A DNA stretch of 53,879 nucleotides from Paludibacteraceae bacterium. Lineage in GTDB: Bacteria > Bacteroidota > Bacteroidia > Bacteroidales > Paludibacteraceae. Positions 1 to 52,130 of this stretch are shown piece after piece. The notes below the pieces were generated by a model. It saw only the letters and a program-made list of their open reading frames with translations, did no database searches and was not told the DNA's origin. Location: contig JAFYZR010000068.1 of the NCBI GenBank assembly GCA_017557345.1, positions 1-53,879 of the forward strand, written 5' to 3'. Numbering within the stretch: the first letter of the stretch is position 1; every line of letters starts with the position of its first letter. The position numbers were made by a program, and so were the translations under genes.

Positions 1-27
1 TTCAGGATTCAGGATTCAGGATTCGGA
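1..27. repeat. 7-bp tandem array (TTCAGGA)
   Basis: Three perfect heptads TTCAGGA (1-7, 8-14, 15-21) and a partial fourth unit (TTCGGA). The TGA stop codon of the hydrolase gene on the - strand (16-18) lies inside the third heptad, so the array supplies the gene's end. The array may continue beyond the window. Confidence 0.85.
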
Positions 28-852
28 ATTTATCATTTGGTCATTCAAGTCATATATCGGACTAGGCTCTGTACGGTCAAGCGGTTTGAGGAAAATCTCC
101 TCGCCCGGGACAATCTCTATCTCTTCGAGATAGGAAGCGACGGTAGCAAACGCTACATCCGGGTCGTTATTCTCAAGCGACAGGTGGCAAAGCCATACAT
201 TTCTCAGGTCGGGATGCCAGTTACGCTCCAGCAACTCGCCGCACACATCATTACTCTGGTGTCCGCGCGGACTGAGGATACGCTCTTTGAGATAAGTCGG
301 ATACGGACCGTTGAGCAGCATATGCTCATCATGATTGGCTTCAATCACAAGGTGATTGGCAGTACGGATATACGCCTCCATCTCTTCGTTCGGGCTGCCG
401 CAGTCGGTCATCAGAACAAAGCGCTGGCCCATATAATCGATACAATAACCGAGACAATCCGTTGAGTCATGCTCAATACCAAAGGTATTGATACGCATTC
501 CGAAGAGCTCCCACTCTTTTCCTTTCTCGAAATATCTCCGGCTGGTCCGCAATTTTTCGCGCACACCGTAGTTACGGTCTATGCCTTCGTGAATTTCGGC
601 TGTGGTATATATTGGCAGCTTGACTCGCTCGCCCAGCGTACCCACCGCGCGTATGTGATCCGCATGATCGTGCGTGATGAGCACACCCATTATATTTTGG
701 AAATCAAGCCCCATGTCGCGCAGACATTTCTGTATCTGTCGCGCAGAAATTCCCGCATCAATCAGGATGCCCTGTTGACGCGTGCCCAGGTAATAGCAAT
801 TGCCGCTACTGCCGCTGGCAAAACTCCTAAATATGAGCCCATTCTCCTCCAT
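16..852 (-). CDS. MBL-fold metallo-hydrolase, YycJ/WalJ-like
   Basis: 278-aa metallo-beta-lactamase-fold protein of the YycJ/WalJ-type single-domain hydrolase group, which are usually treated as putative nucleases or phosphodiesterases; the substrate is not shown by sequence. The N-terminus MEENGLIFRSFASGSSGNCY has the SGSSGN signature of this group, and the metal motif is THDHADH at residues 60-66, with later candidate metal ligands TDCG and EANHDEHM. I use the ATG at 852 and not the in-frame ATG at 900, because the promoter -7 box lies at 870-877, downstream of 900, leaving a leader of about 12 nt. The last codons (NSES, then stop) run into a heptad tandem repeat, so the C-terminus may have been altered by repeat growth. 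No operon partner is visible on this side. Confidence 0.88.
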   Translation of the reverse strand: MEENGLIFRSFASGSSGNCYYLGTRQQGILIDAGISARQIQKCLRDMGLDFQNIMGVLITHDHADHIRAVGTLGERVKLPIYTTAEIHEGIDRNYGVREKLRTSRRYFEKGKEWELFGMRINTFGIEHDSTDCLGYCIDYMGQRFVLMTDCGSPNEEMEAYIRTANHLVIEANHDEHMLLNGPYPTYLKERILSPRGHQSNDVCGELLERNWHPDLRNVWLCHLSLENNDPDVAFATVASYLEEIEIVPGEEIFLKPLDRTEPSPIYDLNDQMINSES

Positions 853-869
853 GTTAACAAAAAATCGTG

Positions 870-901
870 CAAAGATACGAAAAAAAAATGATATATGCAA
901 A
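870..901 (-). promoter_or_regulatory. Promoter of the MBL hydrolase gene
   Basis: On the - strand, TTTGCATATATCA begins at 901 and TATCTTTG occupies 877-870, with exactly 20 nt between the TTTG and the -7 box. Matches the Bacteroidota TTTG/TAnnTTTG promoter, with the extended -33 element seen throughout this window. Confidence 0.8.
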
Positions 902-983
902 TAAAATCGAAGATTTTTTTTATTTTAGTGTATCGCGGCCGTTGCGCCATAGGGAGAATGGGGTTAAATATCGGCTACATACC

Positions 984-1060
984 GGTTACTTACCACCGTG
1001 AATCACGCACTTATCGCGCACTTATCGCGCACTTATCGCGCACTTATCACGCACTAATTT
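984..1060. repeat. 11-bp tandem array (GCACTTATCGC)
   Basis: Four 11-bp units at 1007-1017, 1018-1028, 1029-1039 and 1040-1050 (the last ends CAC), then a partial unit. Upstream, 984-1006 holds diverged sequence GGTTACTTACC, which resembles the 11-bp units found at 52018-52057. It lies in the 430-bp gap between the divergent hydrolase and the first giant gene. Confidence 0.82.
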
Positions 1061-1088
1061 TTGCATGTGATTTTGTTCAACATATACT

Positions 1089-1111
1089 GTATATATACAT
1101 AGTATATATAC
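1089..1111. other. Paired AT-rich palindromes GTATATATAC
   Basis: The self-complementary decamer GTATATATAC occurs at 1089-1098 and 1102-1111, 13 bp apart, about 100 bp upstream of the promoter of the giant gene. It could be a pair of operator sites or simply an AT-rich cruciform-prone tract. Apart from this, the 11-bp array and the two promoters, I see nothing in the 853-1282 gap. Confidence 0.4.
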
Positions 1112-1192
1112 ACAATTTGAAGGGTATTTTTGGCAAAAAAGAGCGGATTTTGTGCAAAAATACACTTTTTTGAAAAAAAATATCGCGCGCGC

Positions 1193-1223
1193 TTGCATAT
1201 GTCATTTTTTTGTTGTATCTTTG
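1193..1223 (+). promoter_or_regulatory. Promoter of the first giant secreted-protein gene
   Basis: CTTGCATATGTCA starts at 1192 (TTG 1193-1195) and TATCTTTG lies at 1216-1223, with a 20-nt spacer. The predicted leader is about 50 nt to the ATG at 1283. Confidence 0.8.
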
Positions 1224-1282
1224 CAGCGGATTAGTATGAATTCGAATAATTAACTAAAATATTAACCAAAAAACTCAACATT

Positions 1283-4200
1283 ATGAGAAAATTCTTTTCT
1301 TTCTTAATGGCGGTCCTGTTCGCAGGTAGTATGATGGCAACGGATGTGACTCTTGTGCCAGGTGACTTTACTGAGGCAACTAGTGCTGCCACGAGTGCAA
1401 CCGTTTCAGGCGTGACGGCAGCCATTTCAACAGGATCCATTACAACCGACCAAATTCGTATTTTCAAAACTAATACGATTACGATTTCGGTTGAAACAGG
1501 CGTTATCACCAAAGTTGTATTTACCTGTGCAGCTACCGGTGCAAACCAGTATGGACCTGGATGTTTTGCAGCGCAAACAGGCTATACCTACGAAACTGAT
1601 GGTAATACAGGTACTTGGACCGGTGAAGCAAGTAGTGTTTCGTTCACTGCCAGCACGAACCAAGTGCGCGCAACGCAAATCGTAGTTACAACAGGGACTG
1701 TTGCAGTTGCTGCGCCGGTTATAAGTCCAACCGAAGAAACGTTTTTCGACAATGTCGATGTGACATTATCTTGCACCACTTCAGGTGCCGATATTTATTA
1801 CACACTTGATGGCACAGATCCAAATGATTTGTCTAATGAGTATGATTATCCCTTCACTATTTATGAAACCACAACGGTTAAAGCTATCGCGTACAGCGGA
1901 ACCCAAAAGAGTAGCATTACCTCCAAGACCTTTACCAAAATCGAAAAACAAAGTTGCGCAAATGTTATTTCTTCTCTTACCGGTAGTAGTTCTTATTTAG
2001 AGGATGTTACCGTTACATGGTCAGATGGAAATAAAAACGTTTGGGTAAAAGATGCGACAGGCTCATTATTGATTTATTTCAGTTCGGGAGCAGTAAGTTT
2101 TGAACCAGGAGATGTTATTAGTGGTCTTTACGGCGAGCATCTTAAGTATAACACAGAGATTCACGAACTTAAGACATACCAAGCTGCGACAGACCTAACC
2201 GTTACTTCCGGTACTGCTCCTGCAGCTGAAATATTCAATAGTATTCCTACTACAAGTGATATTAACAAATTTATCGAGATTAAAGGTGCTACTGTAGTGG
2301 CAGGATCGTTTACCACTGAAACCATACTCAACCTCAACCTTTCTTTAGACGGCGAAACGATTGTTTTACGTAATCAATTTAAACAGGCATATACATTTGA
2401 GAACGGCAAGCAATATAATGTAAAAGCGCTTGTTTCATATTATAGTGACGCTTTACAACTTTACTTCGTCTCCGCAGAAGAGAAGCCTGCTGAAACTTAT
2501 GCGACCCTGTATTTCGTAAAACCGAATGATTGGTTGGATGAGATATATGCATATGTATGGAATAATACCGGCGACGGCGAGTTAAATGTATGGCCGGGCG
2601 ATTATATGTCAAATACCTATGAACAAATAAACGGCTTGTATATTTATTCATATAATTTCCCGACTAAGTACGACAACATCATCTTTACTGATGGCACCAA
2701 CCAGACAGTCGATTTGACATGGGATGAATCGACACCTTATTTCTATAATGGTGCATGGTACGCATATGATGATATACCGGTAAGCACAAAGAAGCACTAC
2801 GAAGTACAATTGTATCCGCCCACTTGCAGTTTGAATACCAATGACCTTCCTGCTATTACGGGTAACTTCAACACCGAAACAGATCCGATTCCAATGCACA
2901 CCGGTTGGGATGGTACCCAAAACTACTATTACTACGAATTCGAAGCAGAACCGGGCGATATAGTTCAATTCTTTGAGGCATATGCCGGCACCACCAATCC
3001 GCTTGAGTTCTACGATGCCGTCACGGAATCATGGGGAACAGATATTGTTTTGCCGGAGACATCCAATGCATCAGAAATAGTAGTGCTTGATCAAACGGAC
3101 AACTACCGCTGGAATAAGTGCATTACATATAACGTAGCAGTCGTTTTATTCCCACCTACGGGCGTTCCCGATGCAGGTATTGAGATTATCGGTTCCTTCG
3201 CGGCAAGCGAAGACTGGTCGAAAGGTATCCAAATGACCGAGAACGAAGGCGCATATATCGCTCTGCTCACTGATGTCCTTCCTACGGATGTATTTAAGTT
3301 CCGTGAAGCCGGCACCTGGGATAACGAGCCGATGTATTATGATTCCGATGCAAACAATTGGTATGTTTTCTCCAACTTCACCTTTGGTGATATATGGGTA
3401 GATGCCGGCAGTTCCGGCATTCCGGGATATGAGAAGTACATCGGCTTCGACTGGAGCAATGAGGCCATGTATAAATGGAAACAGCCGAAACCGGATTGCT
3501 ACTTCACGCTTCAGATGACCGATAGTTATGGCGATGGTTGGAATGGTGCTTCGATTACCGTTTCTGATGGCGACTTCAGTCAGGATTACACGCTATCAGG
3601 TGGTTCATCCGACGAAGTAAACGTTCCTTATTTCGGAAAGGACATGACTCTCACCTGGAATTCCGGTAGTTGGGATTCTGAAGTTGGCTTCACCATTCTT
3701 CTCCCCAATGGATATGGCCTATTCAAACACAATCAGGGAAGTGGTATAGCCGACGGCACAGTTTTCTTTACATTAGATGTAAGTCCTTGTGTCTCCGGAG
3801 CCAACCCATTTAACCCGAATGTACAAGCAGAAGTCACCGAGGATAACAAGTTGCGTGTAACATGGGATGCCATTGAAGGTGTTGCTTTCTATCAAGTGCG
3901 CATTTACACTCCGCAAGGCAACGAAATCACCAATAATGCATCGGTTACCGTTACATCCTATCTCTCTATCCCGCTTGCTTTGAGTGGTGAATATACGATC
4001 GTTGTAACCAGTTTCAATGACGATGATTTGCAATTGGGATCTACATCCGTGACAGAGGATATTGTTATTCCTTCTATCACCGAGCCGGTAAGCATTTCTG
4101 TATTTGCTCCGACAGATTGTAACATGGATGTTTCCGGTGGCCTTTGGCTGGTTTGGAGACCAGGTGGAACAGATGATTGGAATGAACCAATCGCCATGAG

Positions 4201-7198
4201 CACTTCTGACGGACAACTCTTTACCTCCGGATTTGTACCCAATGCTCCTTCTTATGATTACTATGTAATTAATGCAGCCAACCAATCTGATGCCACAGGC
4301 ATTTCCAGTTGGTGGGAAAATCTCACAGACATGCAGCATTGTAGTGAAATTTTGTGGGCTCCTGATGGTTCAGAACACGGATTGAAGGTAAACAGCAGTT
4401 GCGCTTTCACGGATCATAACTACGCTATCACCAGCACATCTTCACTAGTCGCTCCGGGCGTCTTACGTTTGAGCTGGACAGCCGCAGATATGGACGATCA
4501 ATATTATGTGGAGGTATATAAAGCAGATGGAGATCAGTATATTTATGGTGACTATGCAGAAGGAGTTCCTTATAACCTGACGGTAGGAGATGGTTTGGAT
4601 GGAGTTGAGGTTTACTGGACTGTACAACCCGTTTCTCCATACATGCACGCTGCTGTAAGGGCAGACAATGTCACACTACAAAAGAATGACGAATCGCTCT
4701 CACTTGTAAGCGGAGAAGTTACGACCAGCGATAACAAATCGCTGCACGCAGAGTGGGAATTCAGCCAAACTGATCTACATTATCTGGTAGAGGTATATTA
4801 TGGTGGTCAAGTCATTCATAGTGCAGTTGTAACAACCACATCCTATGATTATGAGTTAGCATTCTTCATCCAAGCTAACTTAGCCGTACTTGTAACTCCA
4901 TTGAACTCATCTACGGGAGATTTACTGTGTCAGCCTATTAATTTAGGAAGTATATATCTCGAAAACGCGCCACAAGCCATCGATAACTTCCAAGGTTCGG
5001 CAACTGATCATCATTTGACCTATACTTGGACAAGCTTGGCTCCGAAAGTAAAAGCTACTTTCTATCAAAAACTTTCGAATGGCACATGGAACTACTTGTC
5101 TGCTACAGAAACTATTGCCGAGACGTTGGAATTTGATGTAGCGGAAGATGGTGAATACATCCTTGAACTACAACCGTATTATGAGGTATCCACAGGAAAT
5201 TATCTCCTGATTTCACGATATTTCGACTGTCAAGTGCTTGTCTTTACTAAAAATACTTTCACGGTAACAGTAACAGCCACAGCAGGCGGAACCATTGATC
5301 CGGAAGAACTCGCCGATGGTGTTGAATACGCAGAGGGTTATACAATCAACGTATCTGCTTACCCAGAAGAAGGTTATTACTTCGAGCAATGGAGTGACGG
5401 AGTAACCGGTTACCCACGCACACTCTACGTAGATGGTGATATTACACTCCAGGCTATCTTCAAACCATTAGTTACGCTGACCGTTTCATCCAATGATGAA
5501 TCTATGGGTTATGTAGAAGTATCGGACAACTACTATGACGATTTGGGAAGCGGTGTTTACACATTTATTCCGGGCACAGAAGTACAACTGAATGCAATAC
5601 AAGTGAGCGGTTATGAGTTCATTAAGTGGTCGGATGATGTGCTTACCTACAACCGTTCGTTCATCATCACAGAAAACGTAACGCTCCAAGCTATCTTTGA
5701 TGTAGAAGATACCAGCGTACCTACCCACTTTGTTGACATCTATTCCTTCAATGAGGACATGGGAACGGTAAATAATGTAAGCGGTTATTGGAAAGAAGGC
5801 AAGTCATTCGAAGTAACGGCTACGCCGAAACCGGGATTCCGATTTGTGAAGTGGTCCGATGAAAACACGGAGAACCCACGTATATTCACAGTAGGTACGG
5901 CAGACATTGAGATCTACGCAACCTTCGAGGCTGAGACATATACCTTGAAACTTATTGCCGGCGAAGGCGGTTCGGTTGATCCGAGCACAGAGGTTACAGA
6001 TATCGCATACGGCGAGAAGAAAGCCATCAAAGCATTGGCTGATCCGGGCTACGAATTCTTGAAGTGGTCTGATAACATACCATTTGCAGAGCGTCAGATT
6101 ACAATCGTTCAAGACTGCACGCTGACCGCTTACTTCCAAGCGACAATCGTTCCGATTACCCAGTTCACCTTCGCATTAGGAACGAACATCGGTAACGGAA
6201 CCGTAACAAGTTCGATACCGGAAGGCGATTACGATCCGGATACAGAGATTACTGTTACAGCAAATGCTGCTGATGGTTGGGAATTCGTTAAATGGTCGAA
6301 CGAGAGCACAGAGAACCCGTTGACATTCAACCTGACAAGCGATGTAACGATCTATGCCGTCTTCAAAGAGCAAGGCGTTGCTCCAACAAAATACGTCTTC
6401 TCGTTCGAAGCAACTGCATTAGGCGGTACTGTAGCATCGTCCGAACCTAACGGAACGTACGAAGAGGGCAAGTCGATTACGCTTACCGCTACTCCAAATA
6501 CAGATTGGGAATTTGTTGTATGGGTTGTCAATGGTGTAAATGCAAGCAATGTTAATCCTTTGACAATCACTTTAACTGAGAACATCTCTGTTTCTGCTAT
6601 CTTTACTACTTCAAAGAAGTACAAAGTAACGATTAAGGTTGGTCCGGACAAGGGTGGTACCGTTGACCCGAAAATTACGGAGAAAGAGTACAACGGCGGT
6701 GCGGCTCTTGATATCAAGGCCATTCCGGACGAGGACTACAAGTTCGTTGAATGGAAGGAAGATGGCAATACAGACGCTGAGCGCACGATTGTCATTACCC
6801 AGGATACCGTTCTGACTGCAATCTTCGCAGAGATTGTTTACTACCAGTTGAAGGTGGTTATCGATCCGGAAGAGGCAGGTACGGTTCTGTTCGACGGTAA
6901 AGTGGTTAAGAATCTATCAAAGAGCTACGCAGAAGGCACAACCGTCAAACTGACAGCTGAGCCGGAAACGGGCTATGTATTCGATCACTTCGAAGATGGC
7001 AATAATGACATCACTACCGATGTTTACAACGTTAAGATGGATAAGAAGAGAACCATCACCGCTGTCTTCGTAAAAGATACTCGTGATTTGAATAACATCG
7101 ATGCTACTGAGCATGCTACCAAGATTTTGATTAACGGCGAGATTTACATCCTCCGTGGTGATAAGATTTACACCGTTCAAGGACAGATAGTCAAATGA
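1283..7198 (+). CDS. Giant secreted multidomain protein with eight InlB-type repeats
   Basis: 1971-aa exported protein. Signal peptide MRKFFSFLMAVLFAGSMMA, then a beta-rich N-terminal region, a chitobiase C-terminal-like domain (about 145-222, with YYTLDGTDP), an OB-fold-like module (about 224-402, with NVWVKDATG), a CBM26-like starch-binding segment (about 406-500), two PPT-type beta modules (about 510-735), a DSYGDGWNGA module near 746, fibronectin-like modules, and eight divergent InlB/Listeria-Bacteroides repeats (about 1326-1931, typical core FVKWSDENTENPR). It ends with the short motif NGEIYILRGDKIYTVQGQ shared with four other proteins here. No catalytic domain is recognisable. Probable role: surface-attached carbohydrate binding or adhesion (inference). 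It is a tandem paralog of the next gene. Confidence 0.85.
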   Translation: MRKFFSFLMAVLFAGSMMATDVTLVPGDFTEATSAATSATVSGVTAAISTGSITTDQIRIFKTNTITISVETGVITKVVFTCAATGANQYGPGCFAAQTGYTYETDGNTGTWTGEASSVSFTASTNQVRATQIVVTTGTVAVAAPVISPTEETFFDNVDVTLSCTTSGADIYYTLDGTDPNDLSNEYDYPFTIYETTTVKAIAYSGTQKSSITSKTFTKIEKQSCANVISSLTGSSSYLEDVTVTWSDGNKNVWVKDATGSLLIYFSSGAVSFEPGDVISGLYGEHLKYNTEIHELKTYQAATDLTVTSGTAPAAEIFNSIPTTSDINKFIEIKGATVVAGSFTTETILNLNLSLDGETIVLRNQFKQAYTFENGKQYNVKALVSYYSDALQLYFVSAEEKPAETYATLYFVKPNDWLDEIYAYVWNNTGDGELNVWPGDYMSNTYEQINGLYIYSYNFPTKYDNIIFTDGTNQTVDLTWDESTPYFYNGAWYAYDDIPVSTKKHYEVQLYPPTCSLNTNDLPAITGNFNTETDPIPMHTGWDGTQNYYYYEFEAEPGDIVQFFEAYAGTTNPLEFYDAVTESWGTDIVLPETSNASEIVVLDQTDNYRWNKCITYNVAVVLFPPTGVPDAGIEIIGSFAASEDWSKGIQMTENEGAYIALLTDVLPTDVFKFREAGTWDNEPMYYDSDANNWYVFSNFTFGDIWVDAGSSGIPGYEKYIGFDWSNEAMYKWKQPKPDCYFTLQMTDSYGDGWNGASITVSDGDFSQDYTLSGGSSDEVNVPYFGKDMTLTWNSGSWDSEVGFTILLPNGYGLFKHNQGSGIADGTVFFTLDVSPCVSGANPFNPNVQAEVTEDNKLRVTWDAIEGVAFYQVRIYTPQGNEITNNASVTVTSYLSIPLALSGEYTIVVTSFNDDDLQLGSTSVTEDIVIPSITEPVSISVFAPTDCNMDVSGGLWLVWRPGGTDDWNEPIAMSTSDGQLFTSGFVPNAPSYDYYVINAANQSDATGISSWWENLTDMQHCSEILWAPDGSEHGLKVNSSCAFTDHNYAITSTSSLVAPGVLRLSWTAADMDDQYYVEVYKADGDQYIYGDYAEGVPYNLTVGDGLDGVEVYWTVQPVSPYMHAAVRADNVTLQKNDESLSLVSGEVTTSDNKSLHAEWEFSQTDLHYLVEVYYGGQVIHSAVVTTTSYDYELAFFIQANLAVLVTPLNSSTGDLLCQPINLGSIYLENAPQAIDNFQGSATDHHLTYTWTSLAPKVKATFYQKLSNGTWNYLSATETIAETLEFDVAEDGEYILELQPYYEVSTGNYLLISRYFDCQVLVFTKNTFTVTVTATAGGTIDPEELADGVEYAEGYTINVSAYPEEGYYFEQWSDGVTGYPRTLYVDGDITLQAIFKPLVTLTVSSNDESMGYVEVSDNYYDDLGSGVYTFIPGTEVQLNAIQVSGYEFIKWSDDVLTYNRSFIITENVTLQAIFDVEDTSVPTHFVDIYSFNEDMGTVNNVSGYWKEGKSFEVTATPKPGFRFVKWSDENTENPRIFTVGTADIEIYATFEAETYTLKLIAGEGGSVDPSTEVTDIAYGEKKAIKALADPGYEFLKWSDNIPFAERQITIVQDCTLTAYFQATIVPITQFTFALGTNIGNGTVTSSIPEGDYDPDTEITVTANAADGWEFVKWSNESTENPLTFNLTSDVTIYAVFKEQGVAPTKYVFSFEATALGGTVASSEPNGTYEEGKSITLTATPNTDWEFVVWVVNGVNASNVNPLTITLTENISVSAIFTTSKKYKVTIKVGPDKGGTVDPKITEKEYNGGAALDIKAIPDEDYKFVEWKEDGNTDAERTIVITQDTVLTAIFAEIVYYQLKVVIDPEEAGTVLFDGKVVKNLSKSYAEGTTVKLTAEPETGYVFDHFEDGNNDITTDVYNVKMDKKRTITAVFVKDTRDLNNIDATEHATKILINGEIYILRGDKIYTVQGQIVK

Positions 7199-7203
7199 TT
7201 AAT

Positions 7204-7252
7204 GAGTTAGCGAGTTAGCGAGTTAGCGAGTTAGCGAGTTAGCGAATTAAGG
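7204..7252. repeat. 8-bp tandem array (GAGTTAGC)
   Basis: Five perfect octamers GAGTTAGC from 7204 to 7243 and a decayed sixth, directly after the stop codon of the giant gene and before its terminator. The same unit, with the same orientation on the + strand, recurs at 52086-52130. Confidence 0.88.
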
Positions 7253-16950: not shown

Positions 16951-16956
16951 TTAAAA

Positions 16957-16987
16957 TTTGTGATTTGTAATTTGTGATTTGTGATTT
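16957..16987. repeat. 7-bp tandem array (TTTGTGA)
   Basis: Heptads TTTGTGA, TTTGTAA, TTTGTGA, TTTGTGA and a partial TTT run from just after the pth stop to the base before the ATG of the next gene, leaving no conventional ribosome binding site. Confidence 0.83.
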
Positions 16988-21111: not shown

Positions 21112-21141
21112 CATCTGAGTTGCTTTATCGTTCGTGTATAA

Positions 21142-21180
21142 TTCGTCAATAGTTCGTCAATAGTTCGTCAATAGTTCGTG
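21142..21180. repeat. 11-bp tandem array (TTCGTCAATAG)
   Basis: Three perfect 11-bp units (21142-21152, 21153-21163, 21164-21174) and a partial fourth (TTCGTG) downstream of the flavoprotein gene, just before the shared terminator. Confidence 0.88.
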
Positions 21181-21211
21181 TTTAAGAGCAGAAAGATAGC
21201 AGAACAATACA

Positions 21212-23674: not shown

Positions 23675-25114
23675 TTAGAACAAATCCTGTACCAAACTAT
23701 TCATATACACCTCCAAATTGGTGTATTCTTTGTTTAATGAATATAGTTTAGAGTCCGCGGAGTTATTCTTATCCAATCCATTTGCATCTTCCCAATCATC
23801 GGGCATACCATCCCTATCAGTATCTTTCGGAGCCGCAGTACTATTGAGTTTAGGATAGCCACCTACGTCATCCGGGGAATCGATGAGTCCATTAGTAGAT
23901 CCATTGGATCCGCTATAAGTATAAGTTCCCTTACGCACCTCGTTCACGATGCGAGCATCAACGGCATCCCGATGCAAGGAACAGCCTGCCTTGGAAAGCA
24001 CCGTTTCGTAAGCCATTTCTGCACTCTGCTCTTTCACCATTGCCGTTAGGTTATCCACATGCCGTGATTCCGCTTTGACGTTACTGCCCTTTTGAGTTGA
24101 GCCCTGCCAGTTATCGTTAGTCACGACATCCGAGCCAAACATATAATTGCCGGAGAGATAGAATTTACCGGGTATCAATGTATGTCCATTCGAGCAATAT
24201 TCGCAACTGATGGTCGGGTCAACCAGGCGAGCACGTTTGGAACTACCCGTAGCGGGTCCGTATTTATAGTAATTATTAACCATATTGATTTTACGTGCCT
24301 GGTCATACCCTTCGCCTCCATAAGTCGAGTTGCCACCCCAGTTATAGACGACATTATTAACATAATCAACAGGGCCAAAACATTTGTTATTGACATACGA
24401 ATGGTCAAAACGCGGATTACGGCTATCGTGATGTGCTAACAAGTTATGATGAAATGTGGCATTGGTGCCGCCCCAGATACCTCCGTAGCCATGGTTACCT
24501 TTGACGTGAACGGATCTGCGCAGACTCTCCGTAATGAAACAATATTGGAGCGTAAAATCCGTGTTTCCGTAACAACTGACGCATTCATCCGTACTCCACG
24601 AGAAAGAACAGTGGTCAATGATGATATTCTTATGGTCATTGATGGACAGCGCATCTCCTTCCACTTTATTTTGATCACCCATGCGGAAACGTAGGAAACG
24701 GATGATCACATTGCTTGCCTTGACAACAACCGGGTAACCGGCAATACAGATACCATCTCCCGGAGCCGTTTGTCCTGCAATAGTGACATTTCCGCTAGCT
24801 ATATCGAGTTGCTTGCTCAATTGAATGGTTCCAGACACATCAAACACGATGGTTCTTGTTCCATCCATTTGCACAGCCCTACGTAATGTGCCAACCGTCG
24901 GTTGTCCCGTGTCTTTATCACGCGAATCTTCCAGCGTAGTTACATGAATCACCACGCCACCACGACCTCCATTCGTCAAGCTCCCTCCGCCTTCTGCGCC
25001 AGGAAAGGCAAGAACGGAAGTAATCGGTTCTGGTTCATCGCCTCCGCCTTTGCATGCAGAGAGACAAAGCGAAAGCCCCAAGAACAAATAGCCTATTTTA
25101 GTATAGATAGTCAT
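23675..25114 (-). CDS. Polysaccharide lyase family 1-type pectate lyase lipoprotein
   Basis: 479-aa lipoprotein pectate lyase that cleaves pectate by beta-elimination, probably at the cell surface. The ATG at 25114 gives MTIYTKIGYLFLGLSLCLSAC with a lipobox (LSAC) and an acidic stretch after the Cys (KGGGDEPEPE-like), typical of surface lipoproteins in Bacteroidota. The right-handed beta-helix carries IIIDHCSFSWSTDE, and the SRNPRF segment holds the conserved catalytic-region Arg. Near the C-terminus lies a calcium-binding-like DTDRDGMPDDWED motif common in these lyases. It overlaps the susD gene by 17 nt and precedes the GH28 gene. Confidence 0.9.
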   Translation of the reverse strand: MTIYTKIGYLFLGLSLCLSACKGGGDEPEPITSVLAFPGAEGGGSLTNGGRGGVVIHVTTLEDSRDKDTGQPTVGTLRRAVQMDGTRTIVFDVSGTIQLSKQLDIASGNVTIAGQTAPGDGICIAGYPVVVKASNVIIRFLRFRMGDQNKVEGDALSINDHKNIIIDHCSFSWSTDECVSCYGNTDFTLQYCFITESLRRSVHVKGNHGYGGIWGGTNATFHHNLLAHHDSRNPRFDHSYVNNKCFGPVDYVNNVVYNWGGNSTYGGEGYDQARKINMVNNYYKYGPATGSSKRARLVDPTISCEYCSNGHTLIPGKFYLSGNYMFGSDVVTNDNWQGSTQKGSNVKAESRHVDNLTAMVKEQSAEMAYETVLSKAGCSLHRDAVDARIVNEVRKGTYTYSGSNGSTNGLIDSPDDVGGYPKLNSTAAPKDTDRDGMPDDWEDANGLDKNNSADSKLYSLNKEYTNLEVYMNSLVQDLF

Positions 25115-27038
25115 TCCAGAGAGTGCCATTTGAAGCGGCTACATTCACATCAAAGATTGGCCAGTATTGATGCATATCAATGTCTGTTCCTTCTTTATAG
25201 AGATACCATTTATCAGCTGTGATATACGGTTCATCATCTTTATCAAAGAAGGACTTAACGACCCAGCCGTTCTCTTTGTCAAAGTCAGCAGGTCGTTGAG
25301 CGTCCTTATCAATCCCCACGAATCGATCGAAGACATATGCAGCTCCCTTCTGAGCATAAGCATCATTTCGTGTATAATGGAACCACACAGAATCCGGGCG
25401 TCCGGCATATGCTCCTTGATTTTTCTGCAAGTCATAGCAAGCAGCCTGAGTTGCTTCCAGTTTCTCTTTGAGCAATCCCCAACGCATGAGGTCATATTTA
25501 CGAATATTCTCTCCGCAGAACTCGAAAGCACGCTCATCAACGATATTCGCAAAAGAAACAGCTTTCGAAGCCAATCCAGCACGTTTGCGCACTTTATCAA
25601 AGCAAGCCTGTGCACTAATGCCATACAAATCCGAGGGAGCATTCCCTTCTTTAGAGCCGATAGCCGCTTCTGCAAACATCAACAAGATATCTGTATAGCG
25701 AAGGACGGGCATATCTATTCCATCTTCATTGGAAGAATAACTGCGGACCATCCATTCCACACGCAGTTTTCCGCAATACATTTGCGAAATATTCGATTGC
25801 TTCTGGTATACTTTCTTATCGCTGGCTGCCACTCCAGGGAAAGCAATATCGGTAAGCGAAGCAGTTCCCGAACCCGTATCGTATTCCCAAGTCCAAGGCA
25901 GTATAGTGACATCACGACGCTTATCTTTTTTATCATACGCATAATAGAATGTCGGCACAATCTCTATCATCGCTTGCGTCTTGGCATTATTCGTGTTGCC
26001 ATCGCCGTAAGTGATGGTATTAATCAAAGCCCCCGCACAATTGTTTGACATCTTATTTCCCGTCAATGCCAATACTTGTCCGCGCGCGCCATTCAAGAAA
26101 GGCAGTGCCCATATCCACTCTGACTGCGAATAATCCGTCACATCTTTGCAGAGGTCTTTGAACACATCCGCAAAATCGTCTTTGAATTTCCAATCTTCAT
26201 TCTTAATTACCTGTGCGCATGCCCAAACCGCCTCTTGATACAGTTCCTGACGTTTGCCGGCATCCTTCACATTATATTGAACAGAACAGGCCTTTGTTCC
26301 TCCTTTTGTGAACACATCAGGGCGCATGGCTAAGCCGGCATACATTAGATCCATTCTTGCCAACAAACCATATGCTAACGCCTTACTTGGACGACCCGTA
26401 TAGTTAGCAGCCTTAGCAATGGGCACAGAAGCCGACCAAGGCATCAAGCGTGCGGCCTCTTTGAGATCAATACGCAGTTGTTCAAACACCACATTACGAT
26501 CCTGCTTCTCCGTATATAGCACCTCGGGATTATAGCCATTGAAGGACTCAAAACTTGCCGGCACATCACCCCATAATTTCACCATTTCGAGATAACAGAA
26601 AGAGCGTAGTGCAAGCGCTTCTCCCAAGAGATATTTAAATGTAACATCCGTGGTATCTGAATGCGCACGAATACCATCTATGACGACGTTTGCTCGCTCA
26701 ATAGCCGAGTTGAGATATGCCCACGGGTCTTTACCGTTAGATGTCGACAAATTACCTGTGCCTCCAGTCATGTTATATGCAGCATAATCAGCATCCTCAG
26801 ATTTTGAGCAGTGCTCGATATCTGTATTCATCGCCACATAGCCGCCACAGAGACGATTTCTAAATGATTTATCCTCTCCAAAGGTATTATAAATAGCGCC
26901 GATTGCCTGCTCCGTAAGGTCTGCGGATTTGAATACTGCCTCATCCATTGCCGAAGGAGACTCGGTTTCGAAGAAATCTTTCTCACAAGCGACGAGTGTC
27001 AGTGCTAAAGCACCTAAAAGAAAATATTTTGCTTTCAT
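25098..27038 (-). CDS. SusD/RagB-like nutrient-binding outer membrane lipoprotein
   Basis: 646-aa surface glycan-binding lipoprotein that caps the SusC transporter. Signal peptide with lipobox LVAC (MKAKYFLLGALALTLVAC) and the typical EKDFFETESPSA start; tetratricopeptide-like helical core with NAVIDG/IERANVVIDG-type SusD_N features and the C-terminal RagB/SusD domain (DILLMFAEAA and CGENIRKYDLMRWG segments). An in-frame ATG two codons upstream (27044) is an equally possible start. It lies 15-21 bp after susC and overlaps the pectate lyase gene, so its substrate is probably an oligogalacturonide. Confidence 0.94.
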   Translation of the reverse strand: MKAKYFLLGALALTLVACEKDFFETESPSAMDEAVFKSADLTEQAIGAIYNTFGEDKSFRNRLCGGYVAMNTDIEHCSKSEDADYAAYNMTGGTGNLSTSNGKDPWAYLNSAIERANVVIDGIRAHSDTTDVTFKYLLGEALALRSFCYLEMVKLWGDVPASFESFNGYNPEVLYTEKQDRNVVFEQLRIDLKEAARLMPWSASVPIAKAANYTGRPSKALAYGLLARMDLMYAGLAMRPDVFTKGGTKACSVQYNVKDAGKRQELYQEAVWACAQVIKNEDWKFKDDFADVFKDLCKDVTDYSQSEWIWALPFLNGARGQVLALTGNKMSNNCAGALINTITYGDGNTNNAKTQAMIEIVPTFYYAYDKKDKRRDVTILPWTWEYDTGSGTASLTDIAFPGVAASDKKVYQKQSNISQMYCGKLRVEWMVRSYSSNEDGIDMPVLRYTDILLMFAEAAIGSKEGNAPSDLYGISAQACFDKVRKRAGLASKAVSFANIVDERAFEFCGENIRKYDLMRWGLLKEKLEATQAACYDLQKNQGAYAGRPDSVWFHYTRNDAYAQKGAAYVFDRFVGIDKDAQRPADFDKENGWVVKSFFDKDDEPYITADKWYLYKEGTDIDMHQYWPIFDVNVAASNGTLWNDYLY

Positions 27039-27059
27039 AATCATTAGAATTTACGGTGA

Positions 27060-30000
27060 TTAGAACTGGATATTCATACCAATATTGATACCTCTACTCT
27101 TAGGATATGCCGAGAAATCCACACCCGGAGTAAGCGGGTTTTTGCTCGAGCGAGTATCCACTTCAGGGTCAAGACCGCTGTACTTTGTCGCACAGAACAG
27201 ATTGCTTCCCTGAACATATACGCGGATGGTATTGATTACCTTGGTTTTGGTCATCCATGCTTTAGGGAGCGAATAACCAAGCGTCAGTTGATTAAGGCGC
27301 AAGAATGAGCCATCCTCCAAATCCTGATCTGTCACAACATAATGCGACATGATCGGGCTATAGGTTGTCGCGCCCTTATCTCTATTCATCTGATCCAGTT
27401 GATTAGCGAATTCCACATACTCATCGCCAAATACCAAAGTGCTTGATGCATAAACATCCGGCATATATTGACCTTGTGCAGAGAACAACGAATAGCGATT
27501 ATTGTAACTCATCGCTGAGATGAGGTTGCGCATTTTCGTTTTTTCTGTAATGGTGGTATATTCCATTTTGGATAGGTTGAGAATCTTATTTCCAAAAGCA
27601 AAAGTGAAATTAGCAGCAAGATCGAACTTACCCCATTTATCTCCACCTATATTGAAATTGAGATTAATACCACCTGTATGCGTAGGAACGGTGTTGCCTA
27701 AAATAGTCTTGTCCTTTTCATCGATAACACCATCTTCATTTAGGTCTTTGAACTTAATCGATCCAGGAACTGGGGCATTTGTCAAGAAACCGTCGCCATA
27801 CGTAACTACGCCATCCTTAATACCCCATGCGTGCGATGTGGCAAGATAACTCTGGAAATCAGCTGCTGTGTAATAACCGTCCGTTACATAACCATAGACA
27901 TTGCCGACAGGCTGTCCAACCTCTAACAGGAACTCTGCTGTAGTTAAATATTCGGATGATCCGAAACAACTGGTTTGCGCAAGCATGGATGTAACATTAC
28001 CAAGGTCTTGTACACGAGTTCTATTGAAAGAGATATTACCATCGATGGAGAGGTTATAACTCAAACTCTTTGATTTATGGTCAAGAATAATACCTTTGAC
28101 GGAGAACTCCATACCCATATTACGGGTTGAACCGATATTCTGATATTGATAATTATATCGAGCAGGCATGATTTGACGAATAATCAGGTCTTTGGTAGTA
28201 TTCCAATAGAGGTCGATTGTTCCTGTAAGACGTTCATTGAAGAAGCCGTAATCAATACCAAAGTCACGCGTGATTGTTGTTTCCCATTTGAGGTTGGGAT
28301 TAGCTGCGATCTTATCACTTCCTCCTACTACAAGAATGTTACTTGTTCCTTGTCCCAAGTCGAAATATGTCATCTGCTGTGAAAGGAAATCAGGATGCAG
28401 ATAGCCCAAATCCACATTGTTATTACCGGCCATACCAAGTGACAAACGGAACTTCATATTGCTCAACCAAGATGAAGCATCTTGCATAAACTCCTCATCA
28501 GACATACGCCAAGCAACTGCGCCCGATGGGAAATAGCCCCATTGATTACCCTTTGCGAAACGCGTCGAGCAATCTGCACGGAACGTTCCTGTGATGTAAT
28601 AGCGACCTTTATAATCATAGTTGGCACGAGCCAGGAAGGATAGCTGGTTATCACGCGGGTTGATATAATTCGTAAATTCAGAGTATGCCGCTTGCCCCAT
28701 ATAGTTAAATATCTCACCATTGAGCACATCATAACTGCCTTTGTAGCCAAAGCCATACTCATTCTGTGTCTCGCCTTTGCGGATAACTGTCTCCTCTCCG
28801 ACTAATACACTTACGTTATGATCACTATTGAAACTTTGCTTCCACTCAAGCGTATTATGATTTGTCAATGAAGAACGGAGTTCATCCGTCACTTGAATCT
28901 GCGCCGTTCCTCCTTCTATTCCAGGACGACCCGTATTACGCGAGAAATACGTAGTTGGACCATAGTAACGATCGGTCGTGATATGACGAGATTCGTATCC
29001 CAAATCCACTCGCGCAGTAAAATGCTTCGCAAACTTATAACTCATATAACCTTGGATATTCCATTTTTTATCCTGCTTGAGTTTATAGTTATCGCGGATG
29101 GTGGTCAGCGGGTCATAGAGCGATCCGAAAGTCTCATCCTCATCCTCTACTGTACCATCATTTTTCGAGAGTAGTTTGGTCGGGGTATATACTACGCAAT
29201 TACGCAAACGCGATTCAGTAGTCGTTCCGTTATCCTTGATAGCATTCGAACCCGACCCAAGCACTTCTGTGCTCGTGTAACGAGTAGTAAAACCAATGGT
29301 GAAATTCTTGAACGGTTTGAATTTCGCTTTAGCTGAAATATTATTGCGGGTATAGTTAGACTGCTCCATAATTGCCTTGTCATCTATACGATTATAAGAC
29401 AACGTAAAGTTAGCATTTTTGTTACCACCACTCATGCTAACCGATTGATTAGAATTAAAACCTGTACGACCGAACGTTTGATCTTGCCAATCGATAAAGG
29501 GATGCAAGGAAGCATCCGTATATTCCGTCAACAACTCCGAAATGGACGAGTTTTCCACCTCTGATGGGTCTTTGTATTTCGTATCATTATACACTTTATC
29601 AAAATAGGCATAGAAATTGCTGCGAAGACCGGAAAGAGAATGGTCTTTCTGATAAGCCCATTCGTATTGCATAAGGGCGAATTCCTCAGGATCCAGCACT
29701 TCATATTTCTTGGCTATTTTCTTCCATCCGATATAACCGGAATAATCCACATGGAAAACCATCTTATCTTCATCGGAATTCGAATCCTTGGTTGTGATGA
29801 TGATAACTCCGTTCGCTCCCTGCGCTCCATAAATAGCAGTAGCTGCGGCATCTTTCAACACATCCATCGAAGCGATGTCACTCGGTGCAATATCGGAGAT
29901 AGAGCTAACCGGCATACCATCCACGATATACAAGGGATCGTTACTCTGTGTAAGCGATGTACCTCCACGAACACGGATTTTCACATCCGCGTCCGGACTT

Positions 30001-30470
30001 CCTTCTGTTGTTGTCACCGACACACCAGATAACTTTCCTTGTAATGCCTCTGCCGCACTTGCAACAGGAATATCCTTGAGTTGTTCTGCACTCACAGAAG
30101 CAACAGATGTTACCACATCGCGTTTCTTCGTTGTGCCGTATCCCGTAACAACCACTTCTTCGAGCACTTCGCTATTCTCTGACAGCACTACATTCATCGT
30201 ATTGCCAGTGATGGTCAATTCCTGCGTTTGCATACCAATGTAGGAAAAAACAAGCACTTGCGCATCATCCGGAACATCGAGTGAATAATTGCCATCAAAA
30301 TCCGTAACAGTACCGATTGAAGTACCTTTAACGACCACAGAAGCCGAGATGATAGTCTCGCCCGTCGGATCTTTTACTGTTCCTGTGACAACACGAGCTT
30401 CCACAACCATACCCATCAAGAGGACAGTTGAAAGCATCATGGTACGGAACATACTGAAACTCTGTTTCAT
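27060..30470 (-). CDS. SusC/RagA-type TonB-dependent transporter
   Basis: 1136-aa outer membrane transporter. Signal peptide (about 1-25), a carboxypeptidase-D-regulatory-like domain (about 27-90, VTGTVKDPTGETIISASVVV), the SusC-specific linker LEEVVVTGYGTTKKRDVV as TonB box region, a plug domain (about 115-225, with VRGGTSLTQSNDPLYIVDG), and a 22-strand barrel ending in the terminal aromatic residue (MNIQF). Length is typical. With SusD it forms the import pair of a pectin utilisation locus. No ECF sigma/anti-sigma or hybrid two-component regulator is adjacent; regulation may act at the palindrome in its promoter. Confidence 0.95.
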   Translation of the reverse strand: MKQSFSMFRTMMLSTVLLMGMVVEARVVTGTVKDPTGETIISASVVVKGTSIGTVTDFDGNYSLDVPDDAQVLVFSYIGMQTQELTITGNTMNVVLSENSEVLEEVVVTGYGTTKKRDVVTSVASVSAEQLKDIPVASAAEALQGKLSGVSVTTTEGSPDADVKIRVRGGTSLTQSNDPLYIVDGMPVSSISDIAPSDIASMDVLKDAAATAIYGAQGANGVIIITTKDSNSDEDKMVFHVDYSGYIGWKKIAKKYEVLDPEEFALMQYEWAYQKDHSLSGLRSNFYAYFDKVYNDTKYKDPSEVENSSISELLTEYTDASLHPFIDWQDQTFGRTGFNSNQSVSMSGGNKNANFTLSYNRIDDKAIMEQSNYTRNNISAKAKFKPFKNFTIGFTTRYTSTEVLGSGSNAIKDNGTTTESRLRNCVVYTPTKLLSKNDGTVEDEDETFGSLYDPLTTIRDNYKLKQDKKWNIQGYMSYKFAKHFTARVDLGYESRHITTDRYYGPTTYFSRNTGRPGIEGGTAQIQVTDELRSSLTNHNTLEWKQSFNSDHNVSVLVGEETVIRKGETQNEYGFGYKGSYDVLNGEIFNYMGQAAYSEFTNYINPRDNQLSFLARANYDYKGRYYITGTFRADCSTRFAKGNQWGYFPSGAVAWRMSDEEFMQDASSWLSNMKFRLSLGMAGNNNVDLGYLHPDFLSQQMTYFDLGQGTSNILVVGGSDKIAANPNLKWETTITRDFGIDYGFFNERLTGTIDLYWNTTKDLIIRQIMPARYNYQYQNIGSTRNMGMEFSVKGIILDHKSKSLSYNLSIDGNISFNRTRVQDLGNVTSMLAQTSCFGSSEYLTTAEFLLEVGQPVGNVYGYVTDGYYTAADFQSYLATSHAWGIKDGVVTYGDGFLTNAPVPGSIKFKDLNEDGVIDEKDKTILGNTVPTHTGGINLNFNIGGDKWGKFDLAANFTFAFGNKILNLSKMEYTTITEKTKMRNLISAMSYNNRYSLFSAQGQYMPDVYASSTLVFGDEYVEFANQLDQMNRDKGATTYSPIMSHYVVTDQDLEDGSFLRLNQLTLGYSLPKAWMTKTKVINTIRVYVQGSNLFCATKYSGLDPEVDTRSSKNPLTPGVDFSAYPKSRGINIGMNIQF

Positions 30471-37029: not shown

Positions 37030-37609
37030 GGCAAATCAGACTAACGAGACACTATCGAGAGAGTATCGGATCGGTGGCATCACGGGGTTATCTCGGTGGA
37101 ATCCTAGACAATACACGTGGTTAATAGGCACTTTTGTGCTGCTTCTCTCCTCATGTTCTATCAGTTACAAATTCAACGGAGCCAATATAAATTATCAAAC
37201 AACCCACTCTATCTCTATTGCGGACTTTCCAAATAACGCCGCGATGGTCAATCCTACGCTCAGCAATAATCTAACCGAAGGAATCCGCGATTTATATCAA
37301 CGCCAAACGAGGTTACAAGTGTTGCGCAAAGGCGGAGATTTGGAGTTGGAAGGTGAAATCACAGGATATGACATCTCACAAGGTGCTATCGGCTCGGATA
37401 GCTATGCGACGGAGAGTAAACTGACAATAACGGTAATGGTGCATTTCACCAATAATATCTATCCGGAAGAATCGTTTGACAAGGCGTTTTCGGCTTACCA
37501 GACCTTTGATTCCAGCCGATTGCTAACGGATGTGCAAGATGAGTTGTGCGCCATTATTATTAAGGAAATCGCAGAGAATATTTATAACGACACGGTCGCA
37601 AAGTGGTAA
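37019..37609 (+). CDS. lptE: LptE-family lipopolysaccharide assembly lipoprotein
   Basis: 196-aa outer membrane lipoprotein of the Bacteroidota LptE group, the expected plug of the LptD lipopolysaccharide translocon. Lipobox LLSSC with Cys at residue 46, followed by the family-typical SISYKFNGANINY. The n-region before the hydrophobic core is about 34 residues, far longer than usual. Residues 7-28 are encoded by six degenerate 11-bp units (37038-37103, exactly 22 codons), so the extension looks like a tandem-array insertion that kept the frame. No ATG exists nearer the hydrophobic core. It overlaps the regulator gene by 11 nt. Confidence 0.85.
   Translation: MDYRANQTNETLSREYRIGGITGLSRWNPRQYTWLIGTFVLLLSSCSISYKFNGANINYQTTHSISIADFPNNAAMVNPTLSNNLTEGIRDLYQRQTRLQVLRKGGDLELEGEITGYDISQGAIGSDSYATESKLTITVMVHFTNNIYPEESFDKAFSAYQTFDSSRLLTDVQDELCAIIIKEIAENIYNDTVAKW
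37038..37103. repeat. 11-bp tandem array inside the lptE coding region
   Basis: Six 11-bp units: AGACTAACGAG, ACACTATCGAG, AGAGTATCGGA, TCGGTGGCATC, ACGGGGTTATC, TCGGTGGAATC. The first three resemble each other, as do the last three. The 66 bp equal 22 codons. Confidence 0.6.
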
Positions 37610-47122: not shown

Positions 47123-47175
47123 TCGGTATTAAGTCGGGGTTTAGTCGGTATAAAGTCGGTATAAAGTCGGTATAA
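47121..47175. repeat. 11-bp tandem array (AGTCGGTATAA)
   Basis: Five 11-bp units: two diverged (47121-47131, 47132-47142) and three perfect (47143-47153, 47154-47164, 47165-47175). It starts inside the stop codon of the phosphatase gene and runs into the terminator stem. Confidence 0.9.
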
Positions 47176-47208
47176 AAAAGAGGGACGTTTTCGCGCCCCT
47201 CTTTTTCT
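47173..47208. terminator. Bidirectional terminator between convergent genes
   Basis: AAAAAGAGGG (47175-47184), loop ACGTTTTCGCGC, CCCTCTTTTT (47197-47206), with a T-run in both directions; serves the phosphatase gene and the giant gene on the - strand. Confidence 0.85.
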
Positions 47209-51923: not shown

Positions 51924-51995
51924 TTTATTTCATAAAAAATCACGTTTTGTCCCGAAATCTTAAAAATCGTACATTTTTTTACTCAAAGTTAGATA

Positions 51996-52057
51996 GGTAA
52001 TAACCAGGTAATGCCCATTACTTGATAGTTACTTGCCAGTTACTTGACCTTTACGGG
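51996..52057. repeat. 11-bp periodic array (GGTAATNNCCA and TTACTTG units)
   Basis: GGTAA repeats at 51996 and 52007 (11 bp apart), then TTACTTG at 52018, 52029, 52040 and TTACGGG at 52051, all 11 bp apart. The unit resembles the sequence GGTTACTTACC at 984-994. Confidence 0.68.
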
Positions 52058-52085
52058 GCAAAATCTTAAAAATAGTAAACTTTGC

Positions 52086-52130
52086 GATTAGCGAATTAGC
52101 GAGTTAGCGAGTTAGCGAATTAGGGATTAG
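52086..52130. repeat. 8-bp tandem array (GAGTTAGC), second locus
   Basis: Units GATTAGC, GAATTAGC, GAGTTAGC, GAGTTAGC, GAATTAGG, GATTAG. Same octamer as at 7204, about 45 kb away. It follows the terminator of the - strand gene. With this, the 11-bp array and the promoter, the 375-bp gap 51808-52182 is accounted for; nothing else is visible in it. Confidence 0.8.

Follow-up and report, generated by a model that had tools for sequence, protein, structure and literature searches.

Introduction

Tandem repeats in the intergenic DNA of bacteria are usually ascribed to slippage. The arrays considered here have a period of 11 bp and were first noticed at five loci in a 53,879-nucleotide stretch of DNA from a Paludibacteraceae bacterium (NCBI GenBank assembly GCA_017557345.1, contig JAFYZR010000068.1, positions 1 to 53,879; hereafter the window). 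At least two kinds of these arrays belong to small scattered elements, termed element A and element C, that appear to be landing pads for a DNA-binding protein. Porphyromonas gingivalis, like this bacterium, belongs to the Bacteroidales. Long simple sequence repeats of prokaryotes reportedly have periods of 5 to 11 bp, the range encountered here, and are said to lack sharp peaks at 7, 8 and 11 bp, a set unit number or a partner palindrome.

Which described systems come closest? The parC site of plasmid R1 (ParMRC) resembles the element A arrays in being a row of direct repeats with about one helical turn per unit and five units per set (PMC4949242). Helical complexes of ParR and of omega on repeats arranged in this way have been described, and the parS site of pSM19035 is a related ribbon-helix-helix site (PMC5016525). 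The arrays described here differ from R1 parC and pSM19035 parS in that they are chromosomal, occur in tens of dispersed copies, are built from many different units and are accompanied by a palindrome or by end repeats. Inspection of their surroundings, which included no search aimed at ParM/ParR, revealed no partition genes, and the open reading frames (ORFs) nearest to element A belong to no common family. A plasmid or phage iteron site would be expected on such replicons, and none was found there among the records searched: blastn (E limit 1e-5, low-complexity filter on) matched the window copy of element A to none of 72,556 plasmid records and a second copy (L038) to none of 50,697 phage records, and the exact element A palindrome occurs in no IMG/VR contig.

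The BrickBuilt miniature inverted-repeat transposable element (MITE) of P. gingivalis is likewise intergenic and dispersed, with 19 copies, and holds an internal tandem array between a leader and a tail; in the accessible part of that account its unit is 23 nt and its copy number runs from 1 to 22.8, whereas here the unit is 11 bp, the number is about five and the units differ between elements (PMC4596501). As in MITEs, there are dispersed copies (18 exact palindromes for element A and 40 exact end pairs for element C) and empty orthologous sites (at pta and dapB). In the position of terminal inverted repeats, element C has ends that are direct but quasi-palindromic, and element A has a single, one-sided palindrome. 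Repetitive extragenic palindromic (REP) sequences and the hairpin-forming REP doublets (REPINs), with their REP-associated tyrosine (RAYT, Y1) transposases, are also short, dispersed, extragenic and palindromic in the excerpts available (PMC3116915, PMC3733652). Here, by contrast, the defining part is a phased row of direct repeats, and no RAYT was found on an array-bearing contig. The whole assembly yields one match to the Y1 transposase family PF01797, in stretch L236 (G000:C93), whose contig is GC-rich by eye, holds a perfect 13-bp array and no 11-bp lattice, and is probably contamination. A RAYT was therefore set aside as the cognate transposase. Finally, repeats of TAACTGA and other heptamers in Beggiatoaceae, Cyanobacteria, Xanthomonas and some Bacteroidetes have a fixed period, are intergenic and in many cases directly precede start codons, and as far as the accessible text goes they match the 7-bp class found here (PMC4679880, PMC4692102). 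Paludibacter propionicigenes has two TAACTGA sets, and some Bacteroidetes carry other heptamers beside TAACTGA, according to the same partial text (PMC4679880). Those papers, in the portions available, deal mainly with one heptamer type per genome, whereas here there are many, in addition to an 11-bp class with five units and partner sites. Among the matches listed from the open-licence literature, none describes such elements in this family.

Results

Five arrays with an 11-bp period in the window

The window is contig C57 of a Paludibacteraceae-like metagenome-assembled genome from the rumen (2.84 Mb in 155 contigs) with a listed contamination of 6.84%. Tandem Repeats Finder (TRF) reports period-11 arrays at all five loci of the original prediction (Table 1). 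Four are strong, and the one predicted at 37038-37103 is supported as a weak array at 37040-37068, with no TRF call over its remainder. Counting arrays of at least 2.5 copies and a score of at least 37, 200 dinucleotide-preserving shuffles of the window held a mean of 0.035 period-11 arrays (at most one per window), and none held an array scoring 45 or more. In register, the arrays beginning at 1002, 21130 and 47123 comprise exactly five units each.

Genome-wide counts were made on a sample of 853,879 bases, consisting of the window and 40 stretches of 20 kb from a non-random choice of contigs and amounting to 30% of the assembly, with genes called by an ORF and hexamer script written for this analysis. 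Relatives were represented by genomes of the genus and by the loci of the best 80 ParC relatives (parC loci), which come from metagenome-assembled genomes and other assemblies, mostly of Paludibacteraceae or uncultured Bacteroidales and several from rumen or gut. The outgroup consisted of 372,958 bases sampled from other Bacteroidales families. One genome per species entered the comparisons, and unit numbers are compared across loci and species. Stretches L061-L065 and L082, and likewise L076/L077 and L101, are from the same contigs and partly overlap, so that the pooled relatives contain some double counts, which affect their period spectrum, array positions, stop-frame counts, unit families and unit numbers.

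Element A joins a row of five units to a palindrome

A BLAST search with window positions 1-3000 placed the stretch at 984-1060 at 22 further sites in the genome. Alignment of 14 copies from the sample revealed two conserved parts, the row of 11-bp units and a palindrome, GTATTATATAC-N3-GTATATAATAC, giving element A a plan of five units, a spacer of set length and an 11-3-11 palindrome. Copies were called where a unit similar to TCACGCACTAA lay no more than 140 bp from the palindrome, which gave 35 distinct copies, 13 in this genome and 22 in other genomes. Five units are present in 29 of the 35 (all 13 own copies and 16 of the 22 others), six in four and four in two. The spacer, measured from the last unit to the inner TATATAC, is 24-26 nt long in 28 of the 35 (10/13 own and 18/22 others); the remaining spacers measure 15, 29, 34 (three copies, the window copy included) and 43 nt (two copies). 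By this measure, the first four bases of the window palindrome are counted in its spacer as well. Spacer sequence varies between species, while most own copies are alike.

The exact palindrome was found in 31 of 101 genomes of the genus, among them this genome with 18 sites, and a reversed-pattern control gave 0 sites. Its outer four pairs (of 11) change on both sides between subfamilies, as read from eight distinct sequences. The 854-kb sample contains 15 palindromes of element A type, and each has an 11-bp lattice no more than 130 bp away; the outgroup sample contains no such palindrome. When one locus from each of 30 of the 31 genomes was read beside the palindrome, the best of lags 5-16 was 11 in 25 loci, 7 in four and 10 in one, and at least 24 of 33 positions matched at lag 11 in 24 of the 30. 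By eye, the same palindrome stands beside two unit classes in these loci, ACGCACTTATC in 21 and GGAATAACTAA-like in nine. Two of the latter nine (L242 and L259) are in a 10-bp register, L259 with 26 of 33 matches at lag 10, which indicates that the conserved feature is about one site per helical turn and not exactly 11 bp. When the window copy was compared by BLAST with 60 further genomes of the family, of which only two belong to the same genus, a single 21-nt match was obtained, to the palindrome.

Element C holds its ends at steps of 11 bp

Element C consists of an 11-bp lattice enclosed by quasi-palindromic ends, AAAATnGAACATTT, in direct orientation, its left units (CATAGGTnnTG) and right units (ATACCGATnAG) being roughly inverted to each other. 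Spacings worked out from the coordinates of the 40 exact end pairs in the whole genome fall into three classes, namely 72-74 bp (28 pairs: seven at 72, 11 at 73 and 10 at 74), 83-85 bp (seven pairs: one at 83, two at 84 and four at 85) and 95-96 bp (five pairs: three at 95 and two at 96), with no other value from 59 to 151. The spacing of the ends is thus about 73 bp + 11n. With two mismatches allowed, 25 pairs in the sample belong to the 73 + 11n series, up to 107. By eye, steps of 11 in the spacing also occur where the added DNA has no visible repeat. One copy holds quite different units, of CATTACCTTAT type, inside the same ends, and in genomes G004 and G015 element C ends surround rows of other units (by eye).

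Element C is related to the element at the fifth locus of the window, where the array sits between 23-bp direct repeats 106 bp apart. The same ends at the same spacing enclose different units in two other stretches (L010 and L018), and a fourth locus (L045) has this spacing too. The original prediction had held the five arrays hard to explain by the spread of one repeat. That objection does not apply to at least two of these loci, since 984-1060 lies in a dispersed element with 22 further places in the genome and the ends and 106-bp spacing around 51996-52057 recur.

Arrays are patchy at orthologous sites

Nine species have a gap of 310-590 bp upstream of pta, in each case with an 11-bp lattice that scores 23-32 of 33 at lag 11; in eight species this gap measures 178-229 bp and lacks a lattice (score 14-17). 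This count leaves out the duplicates L065 and L077 as well as L126, L133, L134 and L157, in which pta identity is below 93%, gaps are 172-375 bp, lag-11 scores are 13-18 and there is no array. Three of the 17 loci (L103, L105 and L130) yielded no homologue of the far-side gene. On the parC tree the state of the pta array requires four changes, at least three of them forced by well supported branches. At the dapB junction, eleven loci were read (L206-L215 and L217). By eye, five of the eleven species have arrays, made of different units (for example, five units AATCACTCGAC/AATCACCCGTG/... in G002 and GCATCGCTATT/GCATAGCATTT/... in G004), and six have none; the start of the next gene overlaps the dapB stop in G003, which leaves no space for an array. 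Empty sites thus make up 8/17 at pta and 6/11 at dapB, with sites that lost an array and sites never filled counted together. Truncation of dapB by insertion of an element was considered and rejected, as the element-free L207 has a short C-terminus too.

The period spectrum is peaked and the units are diverse

At a score of at least 50 and at least 2.5 copies, TRF found 75 non-overlapping arrays in the genome sample: 15 of period 7, four of period 8, 19 of period 11, six of period 14, three of period 15, 15 of period 22 and 13 of other periods. Two shuffles of the sample gave none. Independently of TRF, exact-match runs were counted per lag in intergenic DNA (Table 2). In this genome the lags are mainly 7, 8 and 11 and their multiples, with one or two runs each at 9, 10, 13, 15, 19 and 23. 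The sharp genome-wide peak at 11 bp that the original prediction called for is therefore borne out on the sample, and the flat distribution that it named as its refutation was not found. Nor was the smooth distribution of periods expected of neutral simple-sequence repeats. The spectrum is peaked and nearly absent from the outgroup samples, which makes it lineage-specific with respect to those outgroups. Lag-11 autocorrelation in intergenic DNA reaches a z of 17.0 before and 8.0 after masking of the arrays, and 1.0 in the outgroup. Since lags 8 and 9 are also high after masking (7.4 and 6.2), the residual signal may in part reflect other motifs such as promoters.

The 99 period-11 arrays collected from this genome, its relatives and the parC loci fall into 51 unit families, separated by more than one base difference in the best rotation and strand, which upholds the prediction that units differ between loci. 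Pairs of families at distance 2 exceed expectation (23 against 4.6 ± 1.9), yet most families are unrelated, and one motif common to all arrays is rejected. After extension, the arrays have three (22), four (24), five (37), six (11), seven (four) or eight units (one). Arrays of 7 bp reach 14 units.

Three repeats of other kinds were also seen. A further dispersed element, some 130 bp long and built of GGTTTATATGA-type units, occurs in the sample at L010:17505, L014:3757 and L017:12868 in copies 90-92% alike. A near-perfect 47-bp tandem repeat is present in 4.2 copies at L041:10129-10325. In several loci the tail of the parC gene contains 9-bp repeats that differ between species (for example L082:10518-10567 and L085:10482-10511).

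Arrays of 7 and 8 bp occupy other positions

The 7- and 8-bp arrays mostly fill stop-to-start gaps within operons and often iterate the stop codon. In tandem gaps their median distance is 2-5 bp after the upstream stop and 9-42 bp ahead of the next start, compared with 58-68 bp and 65-159 bp for the 11-bp arrays, which are common in convergent and divergent gaps also. Among arrays within 10 bp of a stop, those of 7 bp have stops in all frames of the sense strand in 34 of 45 cases (antisense 14; column-shuffled 21.7 ± 3.0) and those of 8 bp in 12 of 24 (antisense 6; column-shuffled 7.4 ± 1.5). The 7/8-bp arrays look like a largely separate class from the 11-bp arrays. The common mechanism that had been suggested for 7-8 and 11 bp agrees with the stop bias that all near-stop arrays share on the sense strand and disagrees with the positions, so that one mechanism for 7, 8 and 11 bp was set aside although not disproved.

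Other features of the window

The remaining window arrays are listed with the elements in Table 1. The array at 21130 is the sole member of its unit family among the 99. The weak array lies directly behind a sigma-54 activator gene (end 37029) and inside the early part of a listed lptE-like ORF (37019-37609), a gene whose start is placed at 37244 by our gene caller. The array at 47123 begins directly after the stop codon of an alkaline phosphatase gene (45713-47122) and has array-like matches elsewhere in the genome, at 78-88% over 33-58 nt. The arrays at 21130 and 47123 have no identified partner site and are classed by period and unit number alone. The window also includes a SusC/SusD-type locus adjoining a pectate lyase-like protein (23675-30470).

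Table 1 Repeat features of the window, with the corresponding TRF interval, copy number and score
Feature	Position	Strand	TRF interval; copies; score	Basis or remark
Element A array module, five 11-bp units ATCACGCACTT-ATCGCGCACTT-ATCGCGCACTT-ATCGCGCACTT-ATCACGCACTA	1002..1056	+	1002-1055; 4.9; 94	TRF and register; one of 35 element A copies
Element A spacer, last unit to inner TATATAC, 34 nt	1058..1091	+		
Element A palindrome TGTATATATAC-ATA-GTATATATACA (11-3-11)	1088..1112	.		Variant of GTATTATATAC-N3-GTATATAATAC
8-bp array GAGTTAGC	7204..7249	+		Just behind stop codon of 1283-7198
7-bp array ATTTGTG	16956..16987	+		Between the stop of one gene (16950) and the start of the next (16988)
Period-11 array, five units GTTCGTGTATA-ATTCGTCAATA-GTTCGTCAATA-GTTCGTCAATA-GTTCGTGTTTA	21130..21184	+	21130-21179; 4.5; 79	Between convergent genes
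Weak period-11 array	37040..37068	+	37040-37068; 2.6; 37	
Period-11 array, five units TCGGTATTAAG-TCGGGGTTTAG-TCGGTATAAAG-TCGGTATAAAG-TCGGTATAAAA	47123..47177	+	47123-47176; 4.9; 73	
Terminator-like hairpin immediately 3' of the 47123 array	47175..47206	+		Fold and sequence
Left end repeat AAATCTTAAAAATCGTACATTTT, fifth locus	51955..51977	+		
Five 11-bp units, ATAGGTAATAA-CCAGGTAATGC, then inverted type CCATTACTTGA-TAGTTACTTGC-CAGTTACTTGA	51993..52047	.	52018-52048; 2.8; 48	Types by eye
Right end repeat AAATCTTAAAAATAGTAAACTTT, fifth locus	52061..52083	+		106 bp after left end repeat
8-bp array ATTAGCGA	52087..52123	+		Adjoining fifth locus

Table 2 Exact-match runs per lag in intergenic DNA
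Lag (bp)	This genome sample	Genus relatives and parC loci (some overlap)	Outgroup families
7	16	58	1
8	7	14	0
9	1	8	0
10	2	8	1
11	31	32	0
12	0	0	1
13	1	0	0

Discussion

The gaps between genes of this gut bacterium hold many short arrays with an 11-bp period, a low copy number that is often five, and differing sequence. On balance we lean toward the reading that the period-11 arrays are mainly modules of dispersed intergenic elements of about 90-130 bp in this Bacteroidales genus, carrying helically phased protein sites and probably mobile. In this model, each module would line up 11-bp sites, as a rule five of them and either direct or in part inverted, at one site per turn of the helix, and one protein species would load on them side by side along one face of the DNA. 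In element A the row lies at a set distance from the 11-3-11 palindrome, to which a second dimer, formed by the same protein or by a partner, would presumably bind. The row of element C is flanked on both sides by AAAATnGAACATTT ends, and the spacing of these ends is held to 73 bp and whole steps of 11. The elements are copied around the genome and are patchy at orthologous sites, and for this reason we take them to be non-autonomous mobile DNA. A recombination or replication protein acting in trans might then recognise the array together with the palindrome or ends, although a regulatory site appears about equally likely.

A bolder proposal builds on the observation that units differ between sites and species at constant geometry (at dapB and pta, and for element C also in G004 and G015), a pattern that co-evolution of site and protein may have produced. 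The proposal is of a genus-wide recognition system in uncultured gut Bacteroidales, made of about five phased 11-bp sites with a palindrome or paired ends. Its geometry (period, number, spacer and end spacing) would persist, whereas elements and species would exchange the sequence that is recognised, as though the binding protein co-evolved with its site, and it would represent a new non-autonomous mobile element or a chromosome-organising site. We put this forward tentatively and rate it lower because the ACGCACTTATC unit is conserved in 21 of 30 genomes, contrary to rapid replacement of units in element A.

Several further observations weigh against phased, mobile modules as the general account. 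The binding protein is hypothetical, and the sole Y1 transposase match is on a contig without such arrays. Ends or a palindrome were seen for elements A and C and the window's fifth locus alone; over the 51 families, flanking direct repeats rise above the 95% control in nine and inverted repeats in five, where about three are expected. Unit number over all period-11 arrays spreads wider than five, from three to eight. The rarer element A spacers of 15, 29, 34 and 43 nt are not 11-steps from 25, and its shared geometry is not fully independent, since copies within one genome are related. The 100% pairing of the eight palindromes arises partly by selection, as they were chosen for having a stem. 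Outside this genome, the same lattice test is positive at four of six palindromes, lag 9 being best in two loci. For element C, allowing two mismatches adds 11 end pairs in the sample whose spacings, up to 140 bp, fall outside the series and which look like chance matches, and inspection by eye of the flanks of 21 copies revealed no target-site duplication, with element boundaries uncertain. Lastly, 11-bp arrays within 10 bp of a stop have stops in all sense frames in nine of 14 cases (antisense 4; column-shuffled 3.7 ± 1.4), a bias that phased sites do not predict.

Could the arrays instead be fixed control sites, transcriptional or post-transcriptional, such as operators or leader and terminator RNA, and not mobile DNA? 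At pta, the interval from a promoter-like box (by eye) to the start codon contains the arrays, and one gene (MARIHHDSS...) has element A upstream of it in this genome (L022:2018) and in three others (L241, L257 and L260), in the first of which the gene on its other side resembles gyrB (by eye). Copies of A and C also fold slightly better than shuffles (z of -1.9 to -2.3, four sequences). However, the neighbours of element A share no gene family, the largest groups taking in 6 and 4 of 87 neighbour ORFs, so that an operator of one cognate gene is rejected, and its orientation is mixed, with the array side facing a gene 5' end in 23 cases and a 3' end in 20, and the palindrome side in 28 and 16. 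For the arrays at 21130 and 52018, folding is no better than that of shuffled sequences (z of +1.4 and 0.0), and Rfam at its gathering threshold returned only two tRNAs (window and L048) from the window, L015, L048 and L043. Terminator-like hairpins are not clearly enriched beside arrays: in long convergent gaps they occur in three of eight with an array and four of 27 without, numbers too small to claim an association. Patchy presence at orthologous sites also speaks against a fixed role, and we regard control sites as a rather doubtful general explanation.

Neutral slippage would have the replication machinery of this lineage duplicate 7, 8 or 11 bp and so seed arrays of any tolerated sequence, some of which were then copied elsewhere. 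It would accommodate a single period shared by 51 mostly unrelated unit families and the rarity of lags 9, 10, 12 and 13 in this genome, as well as the 7/8-bp arrays that mostly begin at a stop codon, as do some 11-bp arrays; a polymerase-footprint idea for heptamers has been published, cited from another paper in the available portion of PMC4692102. Slippage usually leads to a long tail of unit numbers, though, and none of the 99 period-11 arrays exceeds eight units. Nor does it account for the constancy of unit number and spacer length in element A across species whose spacer sequences differ, or for end spacings in element C that step by 11 without a visible repeat. As an explanation of the arrays in general, slippage is therefore unlikely. 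The original prediction had offered either duplication with a fixed step or a protein that binds one face of the helix; the protein fits the analysed elements better, in that unit number, spacer and end spacing are kept, while slippage, or likewise fixed-step duplication, is possible for arrays without partner sites.

Selection for curved DNA, in which once-per-turn repeats would add bends in phase in negatively supercoiled chromosomes, is the least likely alternative and a very improbable one: predicted curvature, computed with wedge parameters, is higher in arrays (0.88 deg/bp) than in shuffled letters (0.56) or random intergenic DNA (0.74), and an 11-bp periodicity is called characteristic of bacterial genomes in the accessible part of PMC4132750, but real units are no more curved than column-permuted units (mean percentile 0.49, n = 51), so that nothing is favoured beyond repetition itself, and the five units, palindrome and spacer are left unexplained.

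The combination of largely fixed period, number and distances with varying sequence points to the geometry of a nucleoprotein complex. For phased modules of dispersed elements, the 31 genomes with and 70 without the exact palindrome offer a handle by which the protein might be traced through its co-occurrence. Should the elements prove mobile, the Bacteroidales would have in them a counterpart of REPINs that works on another principle; if they are regulatory or structural, they would constitute an overlooked phased binding system of a common rumen lineage.
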